Assembly (NCBI RefSeq): GCF_036226925.1
Contig: NZ_CP109031.1
Coordinates: 4,464,001-4,528,000, forward strand
Reading direction: 5' to 3'
Length of the DNA stretch: 64,000 nucleotides
From: Streptomyces sp. NBC_00659
Lineage (GTDB): Bacteria > Actinomycetota > Actinomycetes > Streptomycetales > Streptomycetaceae
The position numbers and the translations under genes were made by a program. Position 1 is the first letter of the stretch, and each line of letters starts with the position of its first letter. The notes below the pieces were generated by a model that was given only the letters and a program-made list of their open reading frames with translations, was not told where the DNA came from and ran no database searches. Below, one piece after another: positions 17,331-28,556 of this stretch.

Positions 17331-18782
17331 TCAGGTCAGGCCGAGGGCCGGCATGAGGTAGTAGAAGGTGAACACGGCCGACACCACGTACATGGCGACC
17401 GGGATGTCACGGCCGCGGCCCGCCGCCAGGCGCAGCACGACGAAGGTGATGAAGCCCATCCCGATGCCGTTGGTGATCGAGTAGGTGAACGGCATCATCA
17501 TCATCGTCACGAAGGCCGGGATGGCGATCGTGTAGTCCGCCCAGTCGATCTCCTTGACCGAGTGGGACATGATCAGGAAGCCGACCGCGATGAGCGCGGG
17601 GGTGGCCGCCTGGGACGGGACCATCGTGGCGACGGGGGTCAGGAACAGGGCGACGGCGAACAGCGCGCCGGTGACCACGTTCGCGAAGCCCGTACGGGCG
17701 CCCTCGCCGACGCCGGCCGTGGACTCCACGAAGCATGTGGTGGCCGAGGAGGAGGAGACGCCGCCCGCGGCGACGGCGACGCCGTCGACGAAGAGGACCT
17801 TGTTGATGCCGGGCATGTTGCCCTGCGCGTCCGTCAGCTTGGCCTCGTCGCTGATGCCCATGATCGTGCCCATCGCGTCGAAGAAGCACGACAGCAGCAC
17901 GGTGAAGACGAAGAGGATGCCGGTCAGCACGCCGACCTTGCCGAAGCCGCCGAAGAGGCTGAACTGGCCGATCAGACCGAAGTCCGGGCTGGCGACCGGG
18001 TTGCCCGGCCACTTCGGGGTGGTCAGACCCCAGGACGGGACGGTGGTGACGGCGTTGATGATCACCGCGGCGACCGTCATGGTGACGATCGAGATGAGGA
18101 TGGCGCCGGGCACCTTGCGCACGATCAGCGCGAGGGTGAGCAGGGTGCCGAGGACGAAGACCAGCACGGGCCAGCCGTGCAGGTGACCGTCGGTGCCGAG
18201 CTGGAGCGGGACGGTCGTCTGGGCGATGTCCGGGATGCGCGTGACGAAGCCGGAGTCGACCAGGCCGATCAGCATGATGAACAGGCCGATGCCGATCGCG
18301 ATGCCCTTGCGCAGGCCGAGCGGCACCGCGTTCATGACGCGCTCACGCAGACCGGTGGCGACCAGGAGCATCACGATGAAGCCCGCGAGGACCACCATGC
18401 CCATGGCGTCCGGCCAGGACATCCGGGGCGCGAGCTGGAGGGCGACGACCGTGTTCACGCCGAGGCCCGCCGCCAGCGCGATCGGCACATTGCCGATGAC
18501 GCCCATGAGGAGCGTGGTGAAGGCCGCGGTCAGCGCGGTCGCCGTCACGAGCTGCCCGTTGTCCAGGTGGTGCCCGTACATGTCCTTCGCGCTGCCCAGG
18601 ATGATCGGGTTCAGCACGATGATGTACGCCATCGCGAAGAAGGTGGCGAAACCGCCGCGGATCTCCCGCGGAAGGCTGGAACCCCGCTCGGAGATCTTGA
18701 AGAAGCGGTCGAGGGCGCTCTGCGCGGGCCGGGACTCCGGCTCCTGCGGGGCGGGGGCCTTGGTGGCGGCCGAGGTGGACAT
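17331..18782 (-). CDS. NCS2-family purine/xanthine-type permease
   Basis: The 483-residue polytopic permease belongs to the AzgA-like (guanine/hypoxanthine) branch of NCS2. Signatures include EIRGGFATFFAMAYIIVLNP, the GLGVNTVVAL region and the ESTAGVGEGARTG loop. It would import nucleobases in symport with protons. ATG 18782 is chosen because the ATG four codons upstream adds nothing conserved. It is convergent with the RHH gene, only 22 bp apart. Confidence 0.92.
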   Translation of the reverse strand: MSTSAATKAPAPQEPESRPAQSALDRFFKISERGSSLPREIRGGFATFFAMAYIIVLNPIILGSAKDMYGHHLDNGQLVTATALTAAFTTLLMGVIGNVPIALAAGLGVNTVVALQLAPRMSWPDAMGMVVLAGFIVMLLVATGLRERVMNAVPLGLRKGIAIGIGLFIMLIGLVDSGFVTRIPDIAQTTVPLQLGTDGHLHGWPVLVFVLGTLLTLALIVRKVPGAILISIVTMTVAAVIINAVTTVPSWGLTTPKWPGNPVASPDFGLIGQFSLFGGFGKVGVLTGILFVFTVLLSCFFDAMGTIMGISDEAKLTDAQGNMPGINKVLFVDGVAVAAGGVSSSSATTCFVESTAGVGEGARTGFANVVTGALFAVALFLTPVATMVPSQAATPALIAVGFLIMSHSVKEIDWADYTIAIPAFVTMMMMPFTYSITNGIGMGFITFVVLRLAAGRGRDIPVAMYVVSAVFTFYYLMPALGLT

Positions 18783-19020
18783 GCGGGTCCTCAAACGTGC
18801 GGGGGACGGGGAACATGATCGAGCCTGGTCAGTGATCGACCACCAGAAGGTTTCCCCCAGATCCCTTTTGGTGATTCATACGAATACAACTGGCCAGACT
18901 CGGACCGTTTCAGTATGAACATATGAGTCAGAAATCGCTATCTCCGCGCGTAGACCCTTGCCGCACAAGGGGAGGCCGGGTGCGGACACAACCGGTCGCC
19001 GACCCTCGTAAGCTGTGCAC

Positions 19021-19416: not shown

Positions 19417-21816
19417 ATGACCCACACCGACGCGGACGCCGGACTCGATCCGGTTCACCCGGTGCCCATACCCGTCTCCCGGCGTGCCGAGGGGCTGTCG
19501 GCCGCCGAGGTGGCCGAGCGGGTCGCGCGCGGCGAGGTGAACGACGTCCCGGTGCGCAGCAGCCGCTCCGTCGGCGAGATCGTCCGGGCGAACGTGTTCA
19601 CCCGGTTCAACGCGATCATCGGAGTCCTCTGGCTGGTCATGCTGATCGTGGCGCCGTTCCAGGACAGCCTGTTCGGCTACGTGATCATCGCCAACACCGG
19701 GATCGGCATCATCCAGGAGTGGCGGGCCAAGAAGACCCTGGACTCGCTCGCGGTGATCGGCGAGGTGAAACCGACCGTCCGCAGGGACGGGGTCGCCGCC
19801 GAGGTGAGTTCCTCGCAGATCGTGCTCGGGGACCTCCTCGAGATCGGGCCGGGCGACAAGGTCGCCGTCGACGGCACCTGCGCCGAGGCCGACGGGCTGG
19901 AGATCGACGAGTCGCTGCTCACCGGCGAGGCCGACCCCGTGGTCAAGCACGCCGGCGACCCGGTGATGTCGGGCAGCTTCGTGGTCGCGGGCAGCGGCGC
20001 CTTCACGGCGACGAAGGTGGGCCGGGAGGCGTACGCGGCCCAGCTCGCGGAGGAGGCCTCGCGGTTCACGCTGGTCCACTCGGAGCTGCGCAGCGGTATC
20101 TCCACGATCCTCAAGTACGTGACGTGGATGATGATCCCGACCGCCATCGGCCTGATCATCAGCCAGCTCGTCGTCAAGCAGCACGGCTTCAAGGACTCCG
20201 TCGCGCGGACCGTCGGCGGGATCGTGCCGATGGTCCCGGAGGGCCTGGTCCTGCTCACCTCCGTCGCCTTCGCGATCGGCGTCATCCGCCTTGGCCGAAA
20301 ACAGTGCCTCGTACAGGAACTTCCCGCCATCGAGGGCCTCGCCCGCATCGACACCGTCTGTCTCGACAAGACCGGCACCCTCACCGAGGGCGGCATGGAC
20401 ATCACCGAGCTGCGGCCGCTGAACGGCGCCGACGAGTCGTATCTGCGCAAGGTCCTCGGCGCCCTCGGCGAGTCCGATCCGCGGCCGAACGCCTCCCTCC
20501 AGGCGATCATCGCCGCCTACCCGGACAGCGAGGAGTGGCGCTGCACCCAGTCCCTGCCTTTTTCCTCCGCCCGCAAATACAGCGGCGCCGGCTTCAGCGA
20601 GGGCAACGGCGAGTCGAGCACCTGGCTGCTCGGCGCCCCCGACGTCCTGCTGGCCCCGGGGGACGCGGCACTCGCCGAGACCGAGCGGCTCAACGAGGCG
20701 GGGCTGCGGGTGCTGCTGCTCGCGAGGACCACCAAGGACCTCGACGACGCCGGTGTCGCGGAGGCCGCCCGGCCCGCCGCCCTGGTCGTGCTGGAGCAGC
20801 GGCTGCGCCCGGACGCGGCCGACACCCTGCGCTATTTCGCCGATCAGGACGTCAAGGCCAAGGTCATCTCCGGCGACAACGCGGTGTCGGTGGGCGCGGT
20901 CGCCGGGAAGCTGGGGCTCACCGGCGAGGTCGTGGACGCGCGCCGGCTGCCGGACGAGCGCGAGGAGATGGCGAAGTCCCTGGAGAAGGGCACGGTCTTC
21001 GGGCGGGTCACCCCGCAGCAGAAACGGGACATGGTCGGCGCCCTGCAGTCGCGCGGGCACACGGTGGCGATGACCGGCGACGGCGTGAACGACGTCCTGG
21101 CCCTGAAGGACGCCGACATCGGGGTGAGCATGGGCTCGGGGTCCGAGGCGACCCGCGCGGTGGCCCAGATCGTGCTGCTGAACAACAGCTTCTCGACGCT
21201 GCCCTCGGTGGTCGGGGAGGGCCGCCGGGTCATCGGGAACATCACCCGGGTCGCGACGCTGTTCCTGGTGAAGACGGTCTACTCGGTGCTGCTGGCCGTC
21301 CTGGTGGTGTGCTGGCAGGTCGAGTACCCCTTCCTGCCGCGCCACCTGACCCTGCTGTCCACCCTCACGATCGGCGTCCCGGCGTTCTTCCTCGCCCTCG
21401 CCCCGAACAAGGAGCGCGCCCAGCCCCACTTCGTGCGGCGGGTGATGCGGTACTCGATCCCGGGCGGCGTCGTCGCGGGAGCGGCGACCTTCGCGATGTA
21501 CCTGATCGCGCGCCACTACTACACGGGAGAGGGCTCGCTGGAGGCGGAGACGAGCGCCGCGACACTGACGCTGTTCCTGGTCTCGATGTGGGTGCTCGCG
21601 ATCATCGCCCGGCCCTACACCTGGTGGCGGATCTGCCTCGTCGCCTCGATGGGCGGGGCGTTCCTGCTCGTGCTCGTGGTGCCGAGGCTCCAGCACTTCT
21701 TCGCGCTGAAGCTGGTCGGCACGACGATGCCGTGGGTCGCGGTGCTGATATCGGTGACAGCGGCGGCCGTCCTGGAGTTCCTGTGGAGACGGGTCGACCG
21801 CCGCGTGCCCGCGTAG
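19417..21816 (+). CDS. P-type cation-transporting ATPase, CtpE-like
   Basis: The 799-residue P2-type ATPase has the actuator motif LLTGEADP, the membrane motif PEGL (as in Ca2+ pumps), the phosphorylation site DKTGT, and the hinge GDGVNDV. There are eight to ten helices and no N-terminal metal-binding domain. Length and PEGL match mycobacterial CtpE, a Ca2+ uptake ATPase, so divalent cation transport is likely; the ion is inferred. TACCGT (19404-19409) lies 7 nt before ATG 19417, a leaderless pattern. Confidence 0.9.
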   Translation: MTHTDADAGLDPVHPVPIPVSRRAEGLSAAEVAERVARGEVNDVPVRSSRSVGEIVRANVFTRFNAIIGVLWLVMLIVAPFQDSLFGYVIIANTGIGIIQEWRAKKTLDSLAVIGEVKPTVRRDGVAAEVSSSQIVLGDLLEIGPGDKVAVDGTCAEADGLEIDESLLTGEADPVVKHAGDPVMSGSFVVAGSGAFTATKVGREAYAAQLAEEASRFTLVHSELRSGISTILKYVTWMMIPTAIGLIISQLVVKQHGFKDSVARTVGGIVPMVPEGLVLLTSVAFAIGVIRLGRKQCLVQELPAIEGLARIDTVCLDKTGTLTEGGMDITELRPLNGADESYLRKVLGALGESDPRPNASLQAIIAAYPDSEEWRCTQSLPFSSARKYSGAGFSEGNGESSTWLLGAPDVLLAPGDAALAETERLNEAGLRVLLLARTTKDLDDAGVAEAARPAALVVLEQRLRPDAADTLRYFADQDVKAKVISGDNAVSVGAVAGKLGLTGEVVDARRLPDEREEMAKSLEKGTVFGRVTPQQKRDMVGALQSRGHTVAMTGDGVNDVLALKDADIGVSMGSGSEATRAVAQIVLLNNSFSTLPSVVGEGRRVIGNITRVATLFLVKTVYSVLLAVLVVCWQVEYPFLPRHLTLLSTLTIGVPAFFLALAPNKERAQPHFVRRVMRYSIPGGVVAGAATFAMYLIARHYYTGEGSLEAETSAATLTLFLVSMWVLAIIARPYTWWRICLVASMGGAFLLVLVVPRLQHFFALKLVGTTMPWVAVLISVTAAAVLEFLWRRVDRRVPA

Positions 21817-21847
21817 GGCTACGTCACCTGATGGCTGTGCGTCCGGT

Positions 21848-21875
21848 CACTGCACGTCGACGTGGTCACCCGCAG
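21848..21875 (-). pseudogene. 3'-end relic of a fourth copy of the adjacent secreted-protein family
   Basis: Read on the minus strand the segment encodes GDHVDVQ followed by a stop. It matches the GDYVDVQ-stop end of the gene at 21932 at about 25 of 28 bases. It lies beyond that gene's terminator, where the 3' end of a further tandem copy would fall. Nothing else of a fourth copy remains before ctpE. Confidence 0.55.
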
Positions 21876-21881
21876 ACGAAA

Positions 21882-21905
21882 ATCCCCGGCCCTGGGGCCG
21901 GGGAT
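21882..21905 (-). terminator. terminator of the first secreted paralogue
   Basis: ATCCCCGGCCC (21882-21892) pairs with GGGCCGGGGAT (21895-21905). The same ATCCCCGGCC-type stem follows all three paralogues. Confidence 0.8.
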
Positions 21906-21931
21906 CTCCGCTGATGTCAAGCGATCAGGTG

Positions 21932-22783
21932 TTACTGCACGTCGACGTAGTCACCCGCGGCGCTGACGGCCGGGGTGGTCGAGGTGCCCGCGAAGCTGTA
22001 GCGGAAGTAACCGTCGACGGTGGCCGTCGTGGTGGTCTTCAGGTTGCCGGAGCTGTCCGTCTTGACCGTCTTCAGCGTGGTGTAGGTGCTGCTGGTCTTC
22101 TTGCGGAACTGCAGCTTCACCGGCTGGCCCGTGTAGCCGTGGTACTGGAGGTCGTCCCAGTTGGCGCGGGACAGCTTGCCGGTGACCGTGACGGTCTTGC
22201 CCTTCTTCACCGGCTCCGGCGCGGCGTTGACCGTCAGCGTGGAGGCGCGCTGCACCCGGGCGGTCTTGTAGGCGTCGATGATGGTGTAGTCACCGTCGTT
22301 GCCCATGGCGCCGGCCCACACCTTCCAGGTACCGGCCAGGATGTTGGCGTAGATGTTGTCGTTCGGGTCGGCGATGACCGTGACCTTGCAGGTCCCGGTG
22401 GTGGCGCCGGTGGCGGTGCAGGTGCCCATCTCGGCGTCCGGGACGATCGCGCCGTCGACGTTGTCCAGGTCCGAGCCGTGCCACAGCATGGCGTAGCCGT
22501 CGTAGATGCCGGTCGGGTCGGTGGCCGACACCGAGATGGTGAAGGTCTTCTTCTGGGTGGTGCCGACGACGATGTCCTTGCCGCTGTTCACGGTGACACC
22601 GGTGATCTTGGTGTCGCCGACGACCTCGTCCGCGGGCGTGGAGCCGGTGAACGGCGTGATCTTCGAGGTGGACGGCGTCATCGAGGCGAGCGACCCATGG
22701 CCGTCCGCCTGCGCGGCCGGCACAGCGAGAGCGGACAGAGCCAGGGCGCCGGAGACGGCGGCCACAGTGGCACGTATGCGCAT
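21932..22783 (-). CDS. secreted protein, tandem paralogue 1 of 3
   Basis: The 283-residue protein has a signal peptide MRIRATVAAVSGALALSALA ending AAQA (about 26). A variable domain with a C-x9-C pair (near residue 125) follows, then a C-terminal module of about 100 residues almost identical in the three neighbours (NAAPEPVKKGKTVTVTGKL, GYTGQPVKLQFRKK, then GNLKTTTTATVDGYFRYSFAG). That module looks like an all-beta, Ig-like extracellular fold. The start at MRIRAT is fixed by the shared N-terminus of all copies. I do not recognise a named family. Confidence 0.88.
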   Translation of the reverse strand: MRIRATVAAVSGALALSALAVPAAQADGHGSLASMTPSTSKITPFTGSTPADEVVGDTKITGVTVNSGKDIVVGTTQKKTFTISVSATDPTGIYDGYAMLWHGSDLDNVDGAIVPDAEMGTCTATGATTGTCKVTVIADPNDNIYANILAGTWKVWAGAMGNDGDYTIIDAYKTARVQRASTLTVNAAPEPVKKGKTVTVTGKLSRANWDDLQYHGYTGQPVKLQFRKKTSSTYTTLKTVKTDSSGNLKTTTTATVDGYFRYSFAGTSTTPAVSAAGDYVDVQ

Positions 22784-22861
22784 GCGTTCCCCACGTAAGG
22801 AGTGGGGCCCCGGCGATGCCAGTCCTGACAGTTCGTCACCACAGGGGCCCAAGTGATGGTG

Positions 22862-22912
22862 GAGTCTGATGACCCGGAAGAGAAGATCGCTCAGGACCAC
22901 CAATAGTTGTAC
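22862..22912 (-). promoter_or_regulatory. conserved promoter module of paralogue 1
   Basis: GTTGTAC (22906-22912) and GAGTCTGATGACCC (22862-22875) are separated by exactly 30 bp, as before the two other paralogues. On the minus strand GTACAAC reads first, then a GATCTT that could be the -10, then the palindrome-like box near the inferred transcription start, 79 bp before the gene. Confidence 0.65.
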
Positions 22913-22962
22913 GCCGGATGAATTTTTTTCTGCGGCCGTACGAGCGGGCAGGGACAGACAGG

Positions 22963-22991
22963 AATCCCCGGCCCGAGGAGGGCCGGGGATT
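22963..22991 (-). terminator. terminator of paralogue 2
   Basis: AATCCCCGGCCC (22963-22974) and GGGCCGGGGATT (22980-22991) form a perfect 12-bp stem with a 5-nt loop. Confidence 0.85.
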
Positions 22992-23069
22992 CAGGTCGGA
23001 TCAGGTGACCGGGTCACGCGACGGGATCACGGGACCGGATCAGGTGCGACCGCAGGCGGCGATCAGGTG

Positions 23070-23999
23070 CTACCGCACGTCGACGTAGTCACCCGCGGCG
23101 CTGACGGCCGGGGTGGTCGCGGTGCCCGCGAAGCTGTAGCGGAAGTAACCGTCGACGGTGGCCTTCGTGGTGGTCTTCAGGTTGCCGTGGCTGTCCGTCT
23201 TGATGGTCTTGACGGTGGTGTAGGTGCTGCTGTTCTTCTTGCGGAACTGCAGCTTCACCGACTGGCCCGTGTAGCCGTAGTAGTCGTGCAGCTCCCAGTT
23301 CGCGCGGGTGAGCTTGCCGGTGACCGTGACGGTCTTGCCCTTCTTCACCGGCTCCGGCGCGGCGTCGACCCTCAGCTTGGAGTAGCGCTGGAGCTTGCTG
23401 GTGGTGAGCGCGTCCTGGTCGATGTAGCCGACCTTGCTCAGGTCGGCGTCGTCGTCGCTCGGGTCGACCCCGTTGAAGGCGACCGCGAGGCCCATGGCCT
23501 TCCACGTGGTGGCGTCGGCGTTGACCAGTTCGTCGCCCGGGTAGATGTCGATGGTGCTCTTGCAGGTGGCGGTGGTCGACGAGGTGACGGAGCAGGACGG
23601 GAAGTCGTCACCGACCAGGACGCCGACCGGCTCGTCGAAGGAGCCGCGGTAGAGCTCGACGTCCAGGAAGAAGTCGTCGGCGGTGATGTCGACGGAGGCG
23701 CCGTGCTTGACGCTGAAGGTGACCGGGACGGTGACCTGGTTGGCGATACCGGCCACGATCGGCTTGCCGTTGTTGACCTTCACGTTCGAGAAGGAGAGGT
23801 CGAGGGCGTAGGGAGTGCCGGTGGTGGCGCCCGTGGATCCGGTGTACGCGGCCTTGCCCGAGGCGCTGCGGGCGGCATCCTGCACCTTGGCGATGTCCGC
23901 GCGGTGGTCGGTGGAGCCGGCGGCGTGGGCGCCCGGCGCGACGAAGGCGGAGAGAGCCAGGGCGCCGGAGACGGCGGCCACGGTGGCACGAAGACGCAT
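23070..23999 (-). CDS. secreted protein, tandem paralogue 2 of 3
   Basis: The 309-residue protein has the same signal peptide style (MRLRATVAAVSGALALSAF) and C-terminal beta module as its neighbours (KKGKTVTVTGKLTRANWELH, ending GDYVDVR). The middle differs and is about 30 residues longer, with its own C-x9-C pair (CSVTSSTTATC) and a stretch rich in Asp (DPSDDDADLS). Promoter and terminator are its own. Shared DNA at the 3' ends suggests recent duplication or gene conversion. Function unknown. Confidence 0.88.
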   Translation of the reverse strand: MRLRATVAAVSGALALSAFVAPGAHAAGSTDHRADIAKVQDAARSASGKAAYTGSTGATTGTPYALDLSFSNVKVNNGKPIVAGIANQVTVPVTFSVKHGASVDITADDFFLDVELYRGSFDEPVGVLVGDDFPSCSVTSSTTATCKSTIDIYPGDELVNADATTWKAMGLAVAFNGVDPSDDDADLSKVGYIDQDALTTSKLQRYSKLRVDAAPEPVKKGKTVTVTGKLTRANWELHDYYGYTGQSVKLQFRKKNSSTYTTVKTIKTDSHGNLKTTTKATVDGYFRYSFAGTATTPAVSAAGDYVDVR

Positions 24000-24076
24000 G
24001 CGATCCCCCAGTGAAGACAGGGCCCGGTTGTGGTCGTTCCTCACGGCTCGCGGTCACAGGGGCCCAGGTGATGGCG

Positions 24077-24127
24077 GAGTCTGATGACTCGTTGGGAAAG
24101 ATCGCCGGGGTGCTCGAATGGTTGCAC
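24077..24127 (-). promoter_or_regulatory. conserved promoter module of paralogue 2
   Basis: GTTGCAC (24121-24127), 30 bp, then GAGTCTGATGACTC (24077-24090), a perfect GAGTC-N4-GACTC inverted repeat, 78 bp before the start. On the minus strand GATCTT follows GTGCAAC by 17 nt. Confidence 0.7.
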
Positions 24128-24186
24128 GAGAGATGAAATCTTTGTGCGGTCCATACGGAGATCGGGACGGAGATCGGGACAAACAG

Positions 24187-24214
24187 AAATCCCCGGCCTA
24201 AAGGCCGGGGATTT
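24187..24214 (-). terminator. terminator of paralogue 3
   Basis: AAATCCCCGGCC (24187-24198) and GGCCGGGGATTT (24203-24214) form a perfect 12-bp stem with a TAAA loop. Confidence 0.87.
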
Positions 24215-24222
24215 CCGGTGAC

Positions 24223-24276
24223 ATCAGGTGGTACCGCGCGTTCAGGCGGTACCGCGTGTTCAGGTGTTACTGCACG
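24223..24276 (-). repeat. 18-bp tandem triplication of the paralogue-3 stop region
   Basis: Three 18-bp units start at 24223, 24241 and 24259 (TTCAGGYGGTACCGCGYG-like). The last one contains the gene's own GTGCAG-TAA end, so the stop-codon region has been copied twice into the 3' untranslated region. Confidence 0.7.
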
Positions 24277-25064
24277 TCGACGTAGTCGCCCCCGGCGCTG
24301 ACGGCCGGGGTGGTCGTGGTGCCCGCGAAGCTGTAGCGGAAGTAACCGTCGGCGGTGGCCGTCGTGGTCGTCTTCAGGTTGCCGGAGCTGTCCGTCTTGA
24401 CCGTCTTGAGCGTGGTGTAGGTGGTGCTGCCCTTCTTGCGGAACTGCAGCTTCACCGACTGGCCCGTGTAGCCCTGGTACTTGGCGTTGTCCCAGTTCGC
24501 GCGGGTCAGGGCGCCGGTGACCGTGACGGTCTTGCCCTTCTTGACCGGCTCGGGGGCGGCGTTGACCGTCAGCTTGGACAGACGCTGGACGTTCTTGGTG
24601 CCCAGGTCGCCCTGCCACTTGTCGTTGCCGCTGTCGTCGATGGCGAGCGCGCCGACCTTCCAGGCACCGGCCTGGGCGTCGGTCAGATCCACCTCGGCGG
24701 AGCCGGCCGGACGGAACTCGATCTTGGCCGTGCACTTGGCCACCGTGGAGGAGGAGGCGGTGCAGGTGCCGGGCTCGTCGCCGAAGACGACGTCGGTCGG
24801 CGAGGTGACCGAGGTGCCGCGGTAGAGCATCGGGCCGCTCGCGAAGGAGCTCAGGCTGACGCTGGAGGGGTGCGTCACCGTGTAGGTCGCGCTGATCGTG
24901 ACCTGCGCGGAGGCGCCGACCACGATGTTCTTACCACTGTTGATCACGACGCTGGAGAAGGTGACGCCGGACACCGAGTTGCCTGCGGCCTGCGCGGCCG
25001 GCACGGCGAGAGCGGAGAGGGCCAGGGCGCCGGTGACGGCGGCCACGGTGGCTCGTATGCGCAT
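24267..25064 (-). CDS. secreted protein, tandem paralogue 3 of 3
   Basis: The 265-residue protein is the shortest paralogue. The signal peptide is MRIRATVAAVTGALALSALA ending AAQA. A variable domain begins SGVTFSSVVINSGKNIVVG and carries C-x9-C (CTASSSTVAKC). The shared C-terminal module runs from LTVNAAPEPVKKGKT to GGDYVDVQ. The variable part recalls paralogue 1 (TGVTVNSGKDIVVG), which implies that the whole gene was duplicated. The paired cysteines suggest a disulfide outside the cell. Function unknown; a surface or matrix role is only a guess. Confidence 0.88.
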   Translation of the reverse strand: MRIRATVAAVTGALALSALAVPAAQAAGNSVSGVTFSSVVINSGKNIVVGASAQVTISATYTVTHPSSVSLSSFASGPMLYRGTSVTSPTDVVFGDEPGTCTASSSTVAKCTAKIEFRPAGSAEVDLTDAQAGAWKVGALAIDDSGNDKWQGDLGTKNVQRLSKLTVNAAPEPVKKGKTVTVTGALTRANWDNAKYQGYTGQSVKLQFRKKGSTTYTTLKTVKTDSSGNLKTTTTATADGYFRYSFAGTTTTPAVSAGGDYVDVQ

Positions 25065-25394
25065 GGGGTTCCCCAAGTGGAGAAAGGGGGTCCCGGCGGT
25101 GGTCGTTCCTCACGGCTCGTCGTCGGCACGGGACCCAAGTGATCGATGAGTCTGCTGACTCAAGAGATGAGATTAGTGAGGGGTGGGACTGGTTGTACGG
25201 GCGGGGTGAAGGAGTCGCAGTTTTTAGGTTCGCGTTACGCGGGGATGGCGAAACCCAGAGCACAGCCCGGCCCCGGAATTCCCGGGACCGGGCGAAACGC
25301 GCCGTCCGAAATACGGCGGAACCCGACCGGCCCGACCGCCCGGTCCGCCGTGAACAGTCGGCCGGGACGATCGGTCGGACCAGCGGTCACGGGG
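25065..25394. other. 330-bp gap holding the promoter of paralogue 3
   Basis: Apart from the promoter module at 25148-25198, I see no open frame with a ribosome site or known signature. The part from 25200 to 25394 is downstream of the large ATPase gene and holds no clear strong hairpin. Confidence 0.5.
25148..25198 (-). promoter_or_regulatory. conserved promoter module of paralogue 3
   Basis: GTTGTAC (25192-25198), 30 bp, then GAGTCTGCTGACTC (25148-25161), a perfect GAGTC-N4-GACTC inverted repeat, 84 bp before the start. The minus strand has TAATCT, a good -10, 16 nt after GTACAAC. Confidence 0.72.
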
Positions 25395-28300
25395 TCAGTC
25401 GAACCAGCGGTCCCGGGCCAGCTCCTCCGTGCGGGACGGGTCCTCGAGCAGGGCGGCCACCTCGAAGCGGCGCGGCCACTGGCCCGCCGACCAGGCGAGC
25501 CCGGCGGCGACACCCTCCAGGGTGGCGGCGTGCAGCACCCCGTCCCGGCTCCGGCGCCAGTCGAGTTCGGTTCCGTCGACCACGAGCTCCTCGTGCTCGA
25601 CGTACGAAGCGGGGGTCGCGGGGCCCAGCAGGACCCGTACGGACTCCGGTACGTCGTGCTCGGTGCCCTCCGAGGTCACCTCGCCGGTGACGGACTCACT
25701 GAGCCGCCGCACCTGGAACAGCTCGGCGAGCTCCGCGGCCCGTGACGGCGGCACCGGCAGCAGCGGCACCCCGTCGGTGAACGCCAGGAGATCCGGTGAG
25801 TCCACGACCATCGCGTCGGCCGCGTCCACGACCTTCACCTCGCCGTCCACGACCGCCCGCAGCTCGTCCGGCAGGGTCACGCGCTCGGGGTCGAGATCGG
25901 CCAACGCGCTGTACAGGGCGTGCAGTTGGGCTCCGGAGACCCGGCGTCCGGGGTCGGCGAGCCGGTCGAGCAGTTCGGCCGCGCCGCCCGGCTCGTCGAG
26001 CAGGGCTGCCACGGACGTACGGACACCGAGCGCCCGCAGGACCTGCTCGTCGTCGAAGCCGGTCGCGTCGGCCTCGTCGTACAGGCCGCGCAGCAGCGGA
26101 TCGCCGCCGGAGGCCAGTAGACCGGCCGGCCTGCGCCCGTCGAGCACCGGATGCCCGCGCAGCCACCACGCCGTGTACGGGCGGACGATCTCGTGCGTGC
26201 CGTCCGGAAGCAGGACGCGCACCTGCTGGATGATCGCGTCCCGCAGCGGCGGCTGGGCGAGCAGCGCCAAGGCCTCCGGCCACCGGTCGTCGTCCACCAG
26301 GTCCAGATCCCGTACGGCCACGATCTCGGTGGCGACGGGCGGCACCGGCGAGTCGGGCAGCCGGTCCAGGACGTCCTCGCACCACACGTCCACCGCGTCC
26401 AGCAGCCCCGCGTCGTCGGGTTCGGCGAAGTCCCCTTCGCGCGGCTCCAGTTCGTCCGGATCGAGGACGACGTCGGTGGCCCGCACCAGGGCGAAGCCGG
26501 CCAGCACGCCGCAGGCCGCGAGGGGCTGCTCGCCCCAGCGGTCGGCGAGCTCGGCGTCGACGAGGGCGAGTTCGTCCTCGCGCATGATCCGGGCGAACGG
26601 GCTGCCGGGAAGGACGAGTTCACCGGCGGGCACGAGCTCACCCTCCTCGTCCGGCAGGGCGAGAGCACCGAGCCAGGGCTCGTCGCCGGGTTCGAGCGCG
26701 GCGTCACGGACCAGCGCGAGAACGGTGTCCGCGAGCTCCTCCGCGTCCAGGGTGTCCTCGTCCCACGCCCCGCCCTCGTCGTCGAGCGAGGCGGCCACCG
26801 CGGCCCGCACCTGCGGGGTGGTGAGCACCGCGCGGGCCGAGGCCGGGAGAGCGCCCAGCTTCTCCAGCAGGGGGTGGGCCGCGTCCGGGTGCGCGACCTT
26901 GAGGCCGAGCCGGGCGAGCGTGCCGGGGGCCACCAGGGACCCCTCGGCGGTGGGCAGCAGGATCTGGCGGGGCCCGATCGTCGTACGGCCGTCGGCCAGC
27001 GGCACCGGCAGTCCCGACAGCCGGTCCGGGTCCACCCCGGCGAGGCTGTCGTACAGGCGGTACCACCACTCCGGGTCCTTCTCCAGGCCGGCCAGCCGGT
27101 CCACGGCCTCGGTGAGCGGCACCCGGGCGACGCCCAGCGTGCGCAGCTCCACCCGCCGTTCGAGCCCGGCCGGCAGCAGGCCGGTCAGCACCTCCGCGAG
27201 CACCCGGACGGTCTCGGCGCCCGCGCCCTCCACCACCTCGGCGTCGCGCGGCCGCAGGGCGGCGGGGTTCTCCGCGGGGCTGCTCCCGGGCCAGTCCTCG
27301 GGGGCGTCGACGTCCGGCAGCCGGGCCGGCGGGGTGGCGGGCGGCAGGAACGCGGTGCGCGGCAGCCGGTCCAGGATCGCCCGGCGCAGCGCTCCGTCGA
27401 GTTCGCCCTTGCCGAGCGGGCCGGGCACCAGGTCGATGATCCCGGTGTCCACCGGCCGCCAGTCGGCGAGGAGTTCGGCGTAGGCGTCGGCCGCGCGCTC
27501 CACCAGGAAGTCGGTCAGCGGGCCGGGGGCCGCGTGACGCCGGGTGGTGTCGAGGGGGAGCGAGGCGATGAGGAGCGCCGGGACGCCGAGGGCTTCGTCG
27601 CTCGGTGTCGGCGCGTGCACGACGGGGCTGGTCCTCGGGCGGGCCGGGGATCCCTCCGGGTCGACCGGGACGGCCCAGGTCACGGACCAGTGCGGGCGCA
27701 GCCGCTCCTCGACCGGGCGGCCGGCGAGCAGGGCGGGGTCGAGGGGGCCGTGCGCCGCGACGGTGCGGTAGCGGGTGGTGCCGTCGCGGGAGTCGTCGAT
27801 GAGGGCGCCGTGCTCGGCGGCGGTCCGGCGCAGGGTGCGGATCTCCGCGTCGCCGATCTCCACCACCACTTCCTCCAGGCCGGGAAGGGCCAGCAGGAGG
27901 GCGTCGTCGATGGTCCGCAGGAGGCGCTCGGCGAGATCCTCCGCGGCGGTGTCGCGCAGCGGCATGATCACGGCGGTGTCGTACGGGTCCGGGGCGGTGC
28001 CCTCGGCCGCGAACGGCAGCCTCAGCAGCGGCACATGGCCGTCCCGTCGGCGGATCTCGTCGCCGAGACCGGGGCTGTCCGCAGCGATGCCGGCGGCGAG
28101 GTCGTGGGCCTCGGCGAGCGCCCAGCGGACGCCGCCGTGCCGGCCGACGACGGCGGGCTCGTCGGTGACGGCGAGGACCGCGGCGAAGCCGACGCCGAAG
28201 CGGCCCACGGCGGTGTCGTGCGCGTCCCGCTTCGCGGAGGCCCTGAGGGTGGCGAGGGACTCGACGCCGGCCGCGTCGAGGGGGGCGCCGGTGTTGGCCG

Positions 28301-28556
28301 CCACCAGGACGCCGTCGCGGAGCGTGAGACGCAGCCGTCCCGGGGTGCCCGCGCGGGCCGAGGCGTCCGCGGCGTTCTGGGCGAGTTCCACGACGAGCCG
28401 GTCGCGGTACCCGCCGAGGACCAGGTCCTCCTCGGCGTTGGCGTCCTCGCGGAACCTGGCCGGGCTGGTCGCCCAGGCGTCCAGTACTCCGCGGCGCAGG
28501 CGGGCCGTGCCGAACGGGTCCGCACCCTCGGCAGCAGGCCGCACGAACTTACTCAC
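25395..28556 (-). CDS. giant sacsin/HSP90-type (GHKL) ATPase-domain protein
   Basis: The 1053-residue cytoplasmic protein has a Bergerat-fold ATPase at its N-terminus. ELAQNAADA (near residue 57) is the N-box, VLVAANTGAPL replaces the usual DxGxG, and GRFGVGFAAVLAV is the glycine lid. The rest, about 850 acidic residues rich in Leu, Asp and Glu, has no motif I recognise. This is the layout of sacsin N-terminal ATPase-like proteins, presumed chaperones of unknown client. GTG 28556 follows GGGAGAG at good spacing. It is 560 bp from DUF3027 on the same strand. Confidence 0.85.
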   Translation of the reverse strand: MSKFVRPAAEGADPFGTARLRRGVLDAWATSPARFREDANAEEDLVLGGYRDRLVVELAQNAADASARAGTPGRLRLTLRDGVLVAANTGAPLDAAGVESLATLRASAKRDAHDTAVGRFGVGFAAVLAVTDEPAVVGRHGGVRWALAEAHDLAAGIAADSPGLGDEIRRRDGHVPLLRLPFAAEGTAPDPYDTAVIMPLRDTAAEDLAERLLRTIDDALLLALPGLEEVVVEIGDAEIRTLRRTAAEHGALIDDSRDGTTRYRTVAAHGPLDPALLAGRPVEERLRPHWSVTWAVPVDPEGSPARPRTSPVVHAPTPSDEALGVPALLIASLPLDTTRRHAAPGPLTDFLVERAADAYAELLADWRPVDTGIIDLVPGPLGKGELDGALRRAILDRLPRTAFLPPATPPARLPDVDAPEDWPGSSPAENPAALRPRDAEVVEGAGAETVRVLAEVLTGLLPAGLERRVELRTLGVARVPLTEAVDRLAGLEKDPEWWYRLYDSLAGVDPDRLSGLPVPLADGRTTIGPRQILLPTAEGSLVAPGTLARLGLKVAHPDAAHPLLEKLGALPASARAVLTTPQVRAAVAASLDDEGGAWDEDTLDAEELADTVLALVRDAALEPGDEPWLGALALPDEEGELVPAGELVLPGSPFARIMREDELALVDAELADRWGEQPLAACGVLAGFALVRATDVVLDPDELEPREGDFAEPDDAGLLDAVDVWCEDVLDRLPDSPVPPVATEIVAVRDLDLVDDDRWPEALALLAQPPLRDAIIQQVRVLLPDGTHEIVRPYTAWWLRGHPVLDGRRPAGLLASGGDPLLRGLYDEADATGFDDEQVLRALGVRTSVAALLDEPGGAAELLDRLADPGRRVSGAQLHALYSALADLDPERVTLPDELRAVVDGEVKVVDAADAMVVDSPDLLAFTDGVPLLPVPPSRAAELAELFQVRRLSESVTGEVTSEGTEHDVPESVRVLLGPATPASYVEHEELVVDGTELDWRRSRDGVLHAATLEGVAAGLAWSAGQWPRRFEVAALLEDPSRTEELARDRWFD

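Follow-up and report, generated by a model that had tools for sequence, protein, structure and literature searches.

The described system closest to the element reported here is the regulon of sigma-E (SCO3356), an extracytoplasmic function (ECF) sigma factor of Streptomyces coelicolor, whose promoters carry AAC in the -35 and TC in the -10 element, mostly in the arrangement AAC-N18-GTC, and whose targets lie in the cell envelope and include LytR-CpsA-Psr proteins and penicillin-binding proteins (PBPs) (PMC6767563). Four promoters in Table 1 of that paper contain ACAACC (those of sco1755, sco4468, sco5039 and sco7657), the sco4263 promoter reads CACCACCGTTCAC...CGTCTG, and sco4263 and sco7657 are wholly dependent on sigma-E (PMC6767563). 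The regulon of a further ECF sigma factor of S. coelicolor, sigma-U, contains several secreted proteins (as cited in PMC6295645). Here, we analyse a stretch of 64,000 nucleotides (hereafter the window; positions 4464001-4528000 of the 9.66-Mb chromosome) of Streptomyces sp. NBC_00659, in which three tandem genes for secreted paralogues, g1, g2 and g3, are each preceded by a GTRCAAC word and a short inverted repeat.

Our best explanation, to which we assign a probability of roughly 0.7, is that each gene has its own promoter of the ECF-sigma type and that its transcript carries, at or near its 5' end, an RNA stem-loop that acts after transcription, the genes being switched on together. Its observed part is made up of the promoter geometry, the sharing of that promoter with envelope genes, the family specificity of promoter plus hairpin, and a covariation of the stem in which the only mismatches are wobble pairs. 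As a whole, the arrangement is an assembly of known kinds, in which an ECF-type promoter is joined to a conserved RNA hairpin in front of one secreted family in Streptomyces. The original prediction, that no described system has this architecture, stands in so far as we found none in the literature or in Rfam, although promoter and hairpin, taken singly, are of known kinds.

A 5' stem-loop of the ompA type is one that protects the 5' end of an mRNA. The element considered here resembles such stabilisers in being a stem-loop at or near the predicted 5' end of mRNAs for exported proteins, and differs from them in that its ANCA loop and stem letters are conserved and bound to one gene family. With the published sigma-E promoters, the family promoters share the geometry of AAC, 18 nt and RTC, whereas most published -35 elements are GGAAC-like and, by eye, none in the available passages has the full ACAACC-n-TTC; nor do those passages mention the hairpin (PMC6767563). 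The likeness to the sigma-U regulon, an ECF sigma factor combined with secreted proteins, is a lead only (PMC6295645).

A common module precedes the three genes

We examined 82 upstream regions, 79 found through the encoded protein and the three of the window, and 64 of them had a site conforming to our rule (an ANCAAC-like word, at least four of five pairs, a C-G closing pair and a loop of four). The 58 sites that shared the commonest spacing form the ungapped alignment A3 and the rows of R1, a covariance model that spans promoter and hairpin; the three window sites are among them. The genes and the elements in front of them are as follows, the inner hairpin being called P1.

21932..22783, minus strand: g1, secreted protein of two immunoglobulin (Ig)-like domains, 283 aa, ATG at 22781-22783 (open reading frame (ORF), alignment)
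22862..22875, minus strand: P1 of g1, GGGTC-ATCA-GACTC, with one G.U
22883..22887, minus strand: predicted -10 element of g1, ATCTT (A3 columns 27-31)
22906..22912, minus strand: predicted -35 element of g1, GTACAAC, ECF-type promoter (pattern match, A3)
23070..23999, minus strand: g2, paralogue, 309 aa, ATG at 23997-23999 (ORF, alignment)
24077..24090, minus strand: P1 of g2, GAGTC-ATCA-GACTC
24098..24102, minus strand: predicted -10 element of g2, ATCTT (A3)
24121..24127, minus strand: predicted -35 element of g2, GTGCAAC (pattern match, A3)
24267..25064, minus strand: g3, paralogue, 265 aa, ATG at 25062-25064 (ORF, alignment, AlphaFold model)
25148..25161, minus strand: P1 of g3, GAGTC-AGCA-GACTC
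25169..25173, minus strand: predicted -10 element of g3, ATCTC (A3)
25192..25198, minus strand: predicted -35 element of g3, GTACAAC (pattern match, A3)

The gap between GTRCAAC and the repeat is exactly 30 bp before all three genes, as had been claimed, in a search that allowed 22-38. The distance from the repeat to the ATG, put at 78-84 bp before, is 78, 77 and 83 bp for g1, g2 and g3, and the repeat itself is an exact GAGTC-N4-GACTC in g2 and g3, while g1 reads GGGTC/GACTC with one G.T. A -10-like word is indeed present at A3 columns 27-31 (ATCTT, ATCTT and ATCTC in g1, g2 and g3). No sigma-70-type promoter was found in a scan of the region 21700-25400.

The pattern has three matches in the 9.66-Mb genome of this strain and none in the reversed control, and is therefore not due to chance. 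On the same genome, R1 gave 64.4, 53.9 and 49.5 bits for the three sites, 41.1 bits for a fourth copy, and 22.9 bits for the next match. This fourth copy is a decayed version of g2 whose reading frame contains a stop (G000:C1:313487-314544; L009 and L127 among our numbered loci), and it keeps the promoter-hairpin module (314483-314544) with the same 30-bp gap. Within 600 bases of five further, diverged paralogues (L007, L008, L010-L012), there is no GTNCAAC and no repeat.

Of 392 Streptomyces genomes, 102 have the slightly looser pattern GTRCAACN{28,32}GNGTCANCNGAYTC, which has no match in the control columns. A genome-wide scan for matches at random positions had been proposed as a test that might refute the original prediction; it did not do so, for 29 of the 30 loci examined have a family gene, the exception being L016; a script rule identified 28 of the 29, and L026, missed since its -10 reads CTC, was added. 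R1 has a match at E <= 0.01 in 37 of 61 genomes, those near that limit being background, and 39 matches in 27 of the 61 at E < 1e-6. A family gene is present in all 27 loci examined out of these 39 (25 by rule plus L154 and L156), and three weaker matches that were examined (L170-L172) precede other genes. The pairing of promoter and hairpin thus recurs in many Streptomyces, nearly always before this family, which is related to DUF5707. The view of a diversifying, probably extracellular paralogue family with one shared control module, in which the repeat lies near the presumed start, is supported by these results, and the module is specific to the family.

The promoter is shared with other envelope genes

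In the A3 alignment, T28 and C29 are invariant (58/58) and were not part of row selection. The AAC of the -35 is present in all 58 rows, including the three window sites, CAAC having been selected for; the letters before it are G, T and A in 56, 49 and 52 of the 58 rows, and T, T and C follow C-n in 56, 56 and 51 rows. The geometry is therefore that of AAC, 18 nt and RTC, with GTRCAACC-n-TTC as the -35 and RTCT as the -10, and the consensus of the family promoters is GTACAACCnTTC. About 17-18 bases upstream of CAAC, two positions are A in 43 and 45 of the 58 rows, possibly an UP element.

Searching with the promoter alone, the pattern CAACCNTTCN{12,14}GTCT gave six matches in the genome of this strain and none in the control, and the spacer is 13 in all six though 12-14 was allowed. 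The genes behind these matches encode an AMIN-like secreted protein (L173), a glycosyltransferase (L178), signal-peptide-like proteins without a family (L175/L213 and L176) and ORFs without a family (L174 and L177). The pattern ACAACCNTTCN{13}GTCTG has 34 matches in 28 of 121 genomes, again with none in the control. Of 30 such promoter-only loci that we examined, 16 have family genes and 14 have others: FG-GAP proteins in five (L192, L211, L216, L217 and L218), Stealth proteins in two (L195 and L201), a PBP transpeptidase (L198), a glycoside hydrolase of family GH26 (L210) and, in five, proteins without a Pfam family (L194, L202, L206, L213 and L220), so that envelope or secreted-protein genes stand behind the promoter in nine of the 14. 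Weaker model matches precede LytR-CpsA-Psr proteins (L133 in this strain and L172 in a relative), a D-Ala-D-Ala carboxypeptidase (L134) and an FG-GAP protein (L138), but also a RecD2-type helicase (L135); several of these matches depart from the promoter pattern. The presence of the -35/-10 pair before envelope genes too makes it look like a cell-envelope ECF promoter whose use extends beyond the Ig-like family. Going by sequence, we take GTRCAAC to be most plausibly the -35 of a promoter of the ECF-sigma type, one that other envelope genes share. The original prediction had left the regulator of the genes unnamed; on this reading, it is most likely a sigma factor.

The five-pair stem, in contrast, is found in full and in register in 11 of the 16 family loci versus none of the 14 others. 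The module is two separable things: a promoter that other genes share, and a hairpin. At two FG-GAP loci (L192 and L217), another short palindrome, CGAGTGGCCACTCG, lies just after the promoter, nearly at the place of the family hairpin.

The repeat as an RNA stem-loop or a DNA operator

The original prediction left open whether the repeat is an operator or a 5' RNA hairpin. As an operator, it would be bound by a dimeric repressor or activator over the start site, and GTRCAAC would serve as the -35 or as a further binding site. The fixed 30-bp gap to the -35 and the highly conserved letters of this near-palindrome are compatible with such a protein. All five inner pairs are standard in each of the 58 A3 rows. 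Among 134 distinct sites, collected with a regular expression that allowed G.U and A.C alike and with loci L015-L044 excluded, the stem mismatches are ten G.U and no A.C; some of these loci had been found with R1, which favours pairing. The protein-found loci and the window taken by themselves give nine G.U and no A.C in 104 sites, and the 16 sites of the promoter-only loci have no mismatch. The stem letters change together (GAGTC/GACTC, GAGCC/GGCTC, GGGTC/GACCC and AAGCC/GGCTT in the 134 sites), and tandem copies within one locus can have unlike pairs (L050, L071, L088, L112 and L154, for example), which one binding protein could hardly tolerate. The loop, which is asymmetric and yet conserved, reads ANCA in 97 of the 134 sites (AACA 49, ACCA 17, ATCA 16 and AGCA 15).

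For a structure of 12 pairs, 73.1% of the cells are paired, versus 68.6 in shuffles and 18-40 when the structure is slid along the alignment, and the covariation score is 0.220 versus 0.152 (reached by 0 of 500 shuffles); three measures (paired cells, cells altered on both sides, and the covariation score) lie above every one of the 500 shuffles. When the 58 rows were placed on a quick protein tree, 18 switches of stem type were counted, and in independent pairs taken from it, columns 42 and 49 change in the same direction in 5.5 of 7 cases on average and in the opposite direction in none (median p 0.03; 5.2 of 7 and p 0.06 with the traits exchanged). The wobble-only mismatches, the covariation, the different pairs within one locus and the conserved ANCA are more readily explained by an RNA stem formed in the sense strand than by a DNA operator, and the full repeat is lacking from all 14 other loci with the same promoter. 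We therefore favour the RNA hairpin and consider an operator improbable. From the position of the predicted -10, the hairpin would lie near the 5' end of the mRNA.

It should be noted that several observations weigh against the combination of ECF promoter and RNA hairpin. All three window promoters depart from the consensus (g1 reads CAACTATTG and g3 CAACCAGTC, and the -10 is ATCTT or ATCTC instead of RTCTG), and their scores with a promoter-only model are modest (26.9, 26.4 and 19.3 bits). Weak matches of the models also precede a RecD2-type helicase (L135) and family-less ORFs, and 18 of the 82 upstream regions are without a site that meets the selection rule of A3. The rows of A3 were themselves pre-selected for at least four of five pairs and a C-G closing pair; in 14 of 73 promoter-core sites, fewer than four pairs are in register, and while most of these can, by eye, be paired again after a shift or with a loop of five bases, L059, L091, L109 and L123 cannot. 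Two of the five shuffle measures are at chance (pairs changed, 383/500; pair types, 207/500), and the independent tree pairs for columns 40 and 51 are not significant (2 of 4). The outer arms, TGRTC...GAYCA, are complementary in many relatives (equalled by 0 of 5000 swaps) but not in the window genes, and their mismatches lack the wobble bias expected of RNA (23 G.U and 28 A.C in columns 30-34), which, like the extension of the repeat over the -10 in some relatives, speaks for an operator. The latter is the case in L062, L105 and, by eye, L210, where a transcript could not contain the whole repeat if the predicted -10 is the true one. The outer arms may in part be a DNA-level or lineage signal.

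Inverted repeats that cover the -10, or extend up to it, together with a downstream complement are present in L210, L062, L105 and L047, and a purely RNA-level hairpin does not explain them; L210, with its -10-spanning repeat, precedes the GH26 protein and not a family gene.

The leader and its second stem

Downstream of P1, the leaders are long in 50 of 64 cases, with a second stem, P2, that joins TTGGGYCCC to the segment ahead of the ribosome-binding site; the other 14 are short and without P2. In 34 aligned leaders, the P2 arms have energies of -21.1 with their own partner versus -17.7 when swapped (0 of 5000 permutations, with relatedness left in). The elements in the leader of g1 are as follows.

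22804..22850, minus strand: P2 of g1, in which GGGCCCC (22844-22850) would pair with GGGGCCCC (22804-22811) (arm energies, 34 leaders)
22786..22792, minus strand: Shine-Dalgarno-like GGGGAAC ahead of the g1 start codon (its GGG and A are the same in all 34 aligned leaders)

Such a leader could in principle be a riboswitch or thermosensor, in which P1 and P2 sense a ligand or the temperature and gate the GGGGA site. Two co-varying stems, the conserved loop, the conserved letters GATCACTTGGG after P1 and a CUCC stretch just ahead of GGGGA in many long leaders are features that such a device might have. P1 by itself falls short of the size of a typical aptamer, however, and it is all that the 14 short leaders have; a hairpin at the ribosome site is not consistently predicted across the leaders, and Rfam gave no family at threshold in six relatives, while its matches in the window region all stayed below threshold. 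A sensing leader is therefore, in our judgment, quite improbable.

We regard as very unlikely that the hairpin is a processing site, for instance for RNase III, and that the module was merely inherited through tandem duplication. Tandem copies are common, with at least two family ORFs on the same strand in 50 of 79 loci, and the leaders of g1-g3 are alike throughout, which speaks for this reading. RNase III, however, needs no conserved loop letters, and the stem is kept across the genus while the rest of the leader diverges. Our preferred reading remains that of an RNA stem-loop acting after transcription.

Candidate sigma factors

Two sigma factors can be named as candidates. Sigma-E itself is a tentative one, which is possible because the similar sco4263 promoter is under its full control. 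For the other, we scored the 600 bases upstream of region 2 for all 66 sigma-factor matches in the genome; the best promoter score, 4.8, belongs to a gene at 5219234, versus 0.9 for the best reverse-strand control. By score this is weak compared with the family promoters (at least 18.5) and the other envelope matches (14-21). YACAACCC followed by GTC at the AAC-18 nt spacing is nevertheless present upstream of 30 of 30 orthologs examined (an ortholog exists in 40 of 41 genomes). The protein encoded there (G000:C1:5219186-5219692) is an ECF sigma factor of the SigE family (TIGR02983), and we consider it an unlikely regulator because its own promoter is without TTC and RTCTG. A gene for a 376-aa protein that has, by eye, a single likely membrane segment lies 3' of this gene with overlapping codons, and the gene upstream is presumably aspartokinase-like, which would place the sigma-factor gene beside ask-asd.

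The protein family and its neighbourhood

The alignment bears out the shared features described for the three proteins: the start MRxRATVAAVxGALALSA, a C-x9-C pair and last ~100 residues that are near-identical. The cysteines (C123/C133 in g1) are invariant across 37 aligned relatives. The wider family is homologous to DUF5707 (PF18968), which 24 of the 37 relatives match at E <= 0.01 (best 3.8e-19). Within the window, g1 stays just below the Pfam cut-off of 26.8 (1.2e-5, 25.5 bits), g3 stays far under it (11.4 bits), and g2 has no DUF5707 match and no Pfam family above its own cut-off; the C-terminal Ig-like module falls outside the Pfam domain. The AlphaFold model of g3 consists of two beta sandwiches (mean predicted local distance difference test score 83.4), and structure searches returned generic Ig and fibronectin type III matches. 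The signal peptide, together with the kinds of gene that use the same promoter, makes it probable that the family proteins are extracellular or wall-associated.

Directly upstream of the cluster lies a 1053-aa gene (25395-28556), which we take to be sacsin/HATPase-like. The RDRWFD-stop at the C-terminus of its product recurs upstream in 72 of 79 related loci, and the family thus sits in a conserved neighbourhood. Downstream are, by eye, P-type cation ATPase-like and permease-like genes (19417-21816 and 17331-18794). Between and after the three genes are GC-rich inverted repeats, recognised by reading the sequence.

21882..21905: GC-rich inverted repeat after g1, terminator-like, without a U tract
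22963..22991: GC-rich inverted repeat in the g2-g1 spacer
24187..24214: GC-rich inverted repeat in the g3-g2 spacer, with a sub-threshold Rfam match (rnk_pseudo) over it

These repeats suggest separate transcription units, even though a simple terminator scan found no U-tract terminator and scored none of the three.

Conclusions

In the mechanism that we propose, each gene would be transcribed from its own promoter (-35 GTRCAACC-n-TTC, -10 RTCT), and an envelope-stress ECF sigma factor, presumably sigma-E or a relative, would activate the genes jointly. The transcript would bear the stem-loop GRGYC-ANCA-GRCYC at its presumed 5' end or within a few bases of it, followed in the long leaders, those of g1-g3 among them, by the long-range stem TTGGGYCCC...GGGRCCC and the GGGGA ribosome-binding site. 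The hairpin would most likely guard the 5' end of the mRNA, as in ompA, or set its translation, so that a burst of Ig-like secreted proteins would persist. We are rather doubtful of the further-reaching view that the ANCA-loop 5' hairpin, with its optional second stem, is a new class of cis-acting RNA, tied across Streptomyces to one ECF promoter and the Ig-like family and either read by a dedicated RNA-binding protein or blocking a nuclease. If true, it would add an inherent layer of post-transcriptional control to an envelope-stress regulon.

In summary, an anonymous repeat becomes a testable two-layer control element that is present in many Streptomyces, with two sigma factors named as candidates for testing. 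The promoter signature allows further members of the ECF regulon, coding for envelope and secreted proteins, to be listed from sequence alone, and the element could serve high-level secretion in Streptomyces. If verified, an RNA hairpin tied to one family of secreted proteins would be an uncommon kind of control.

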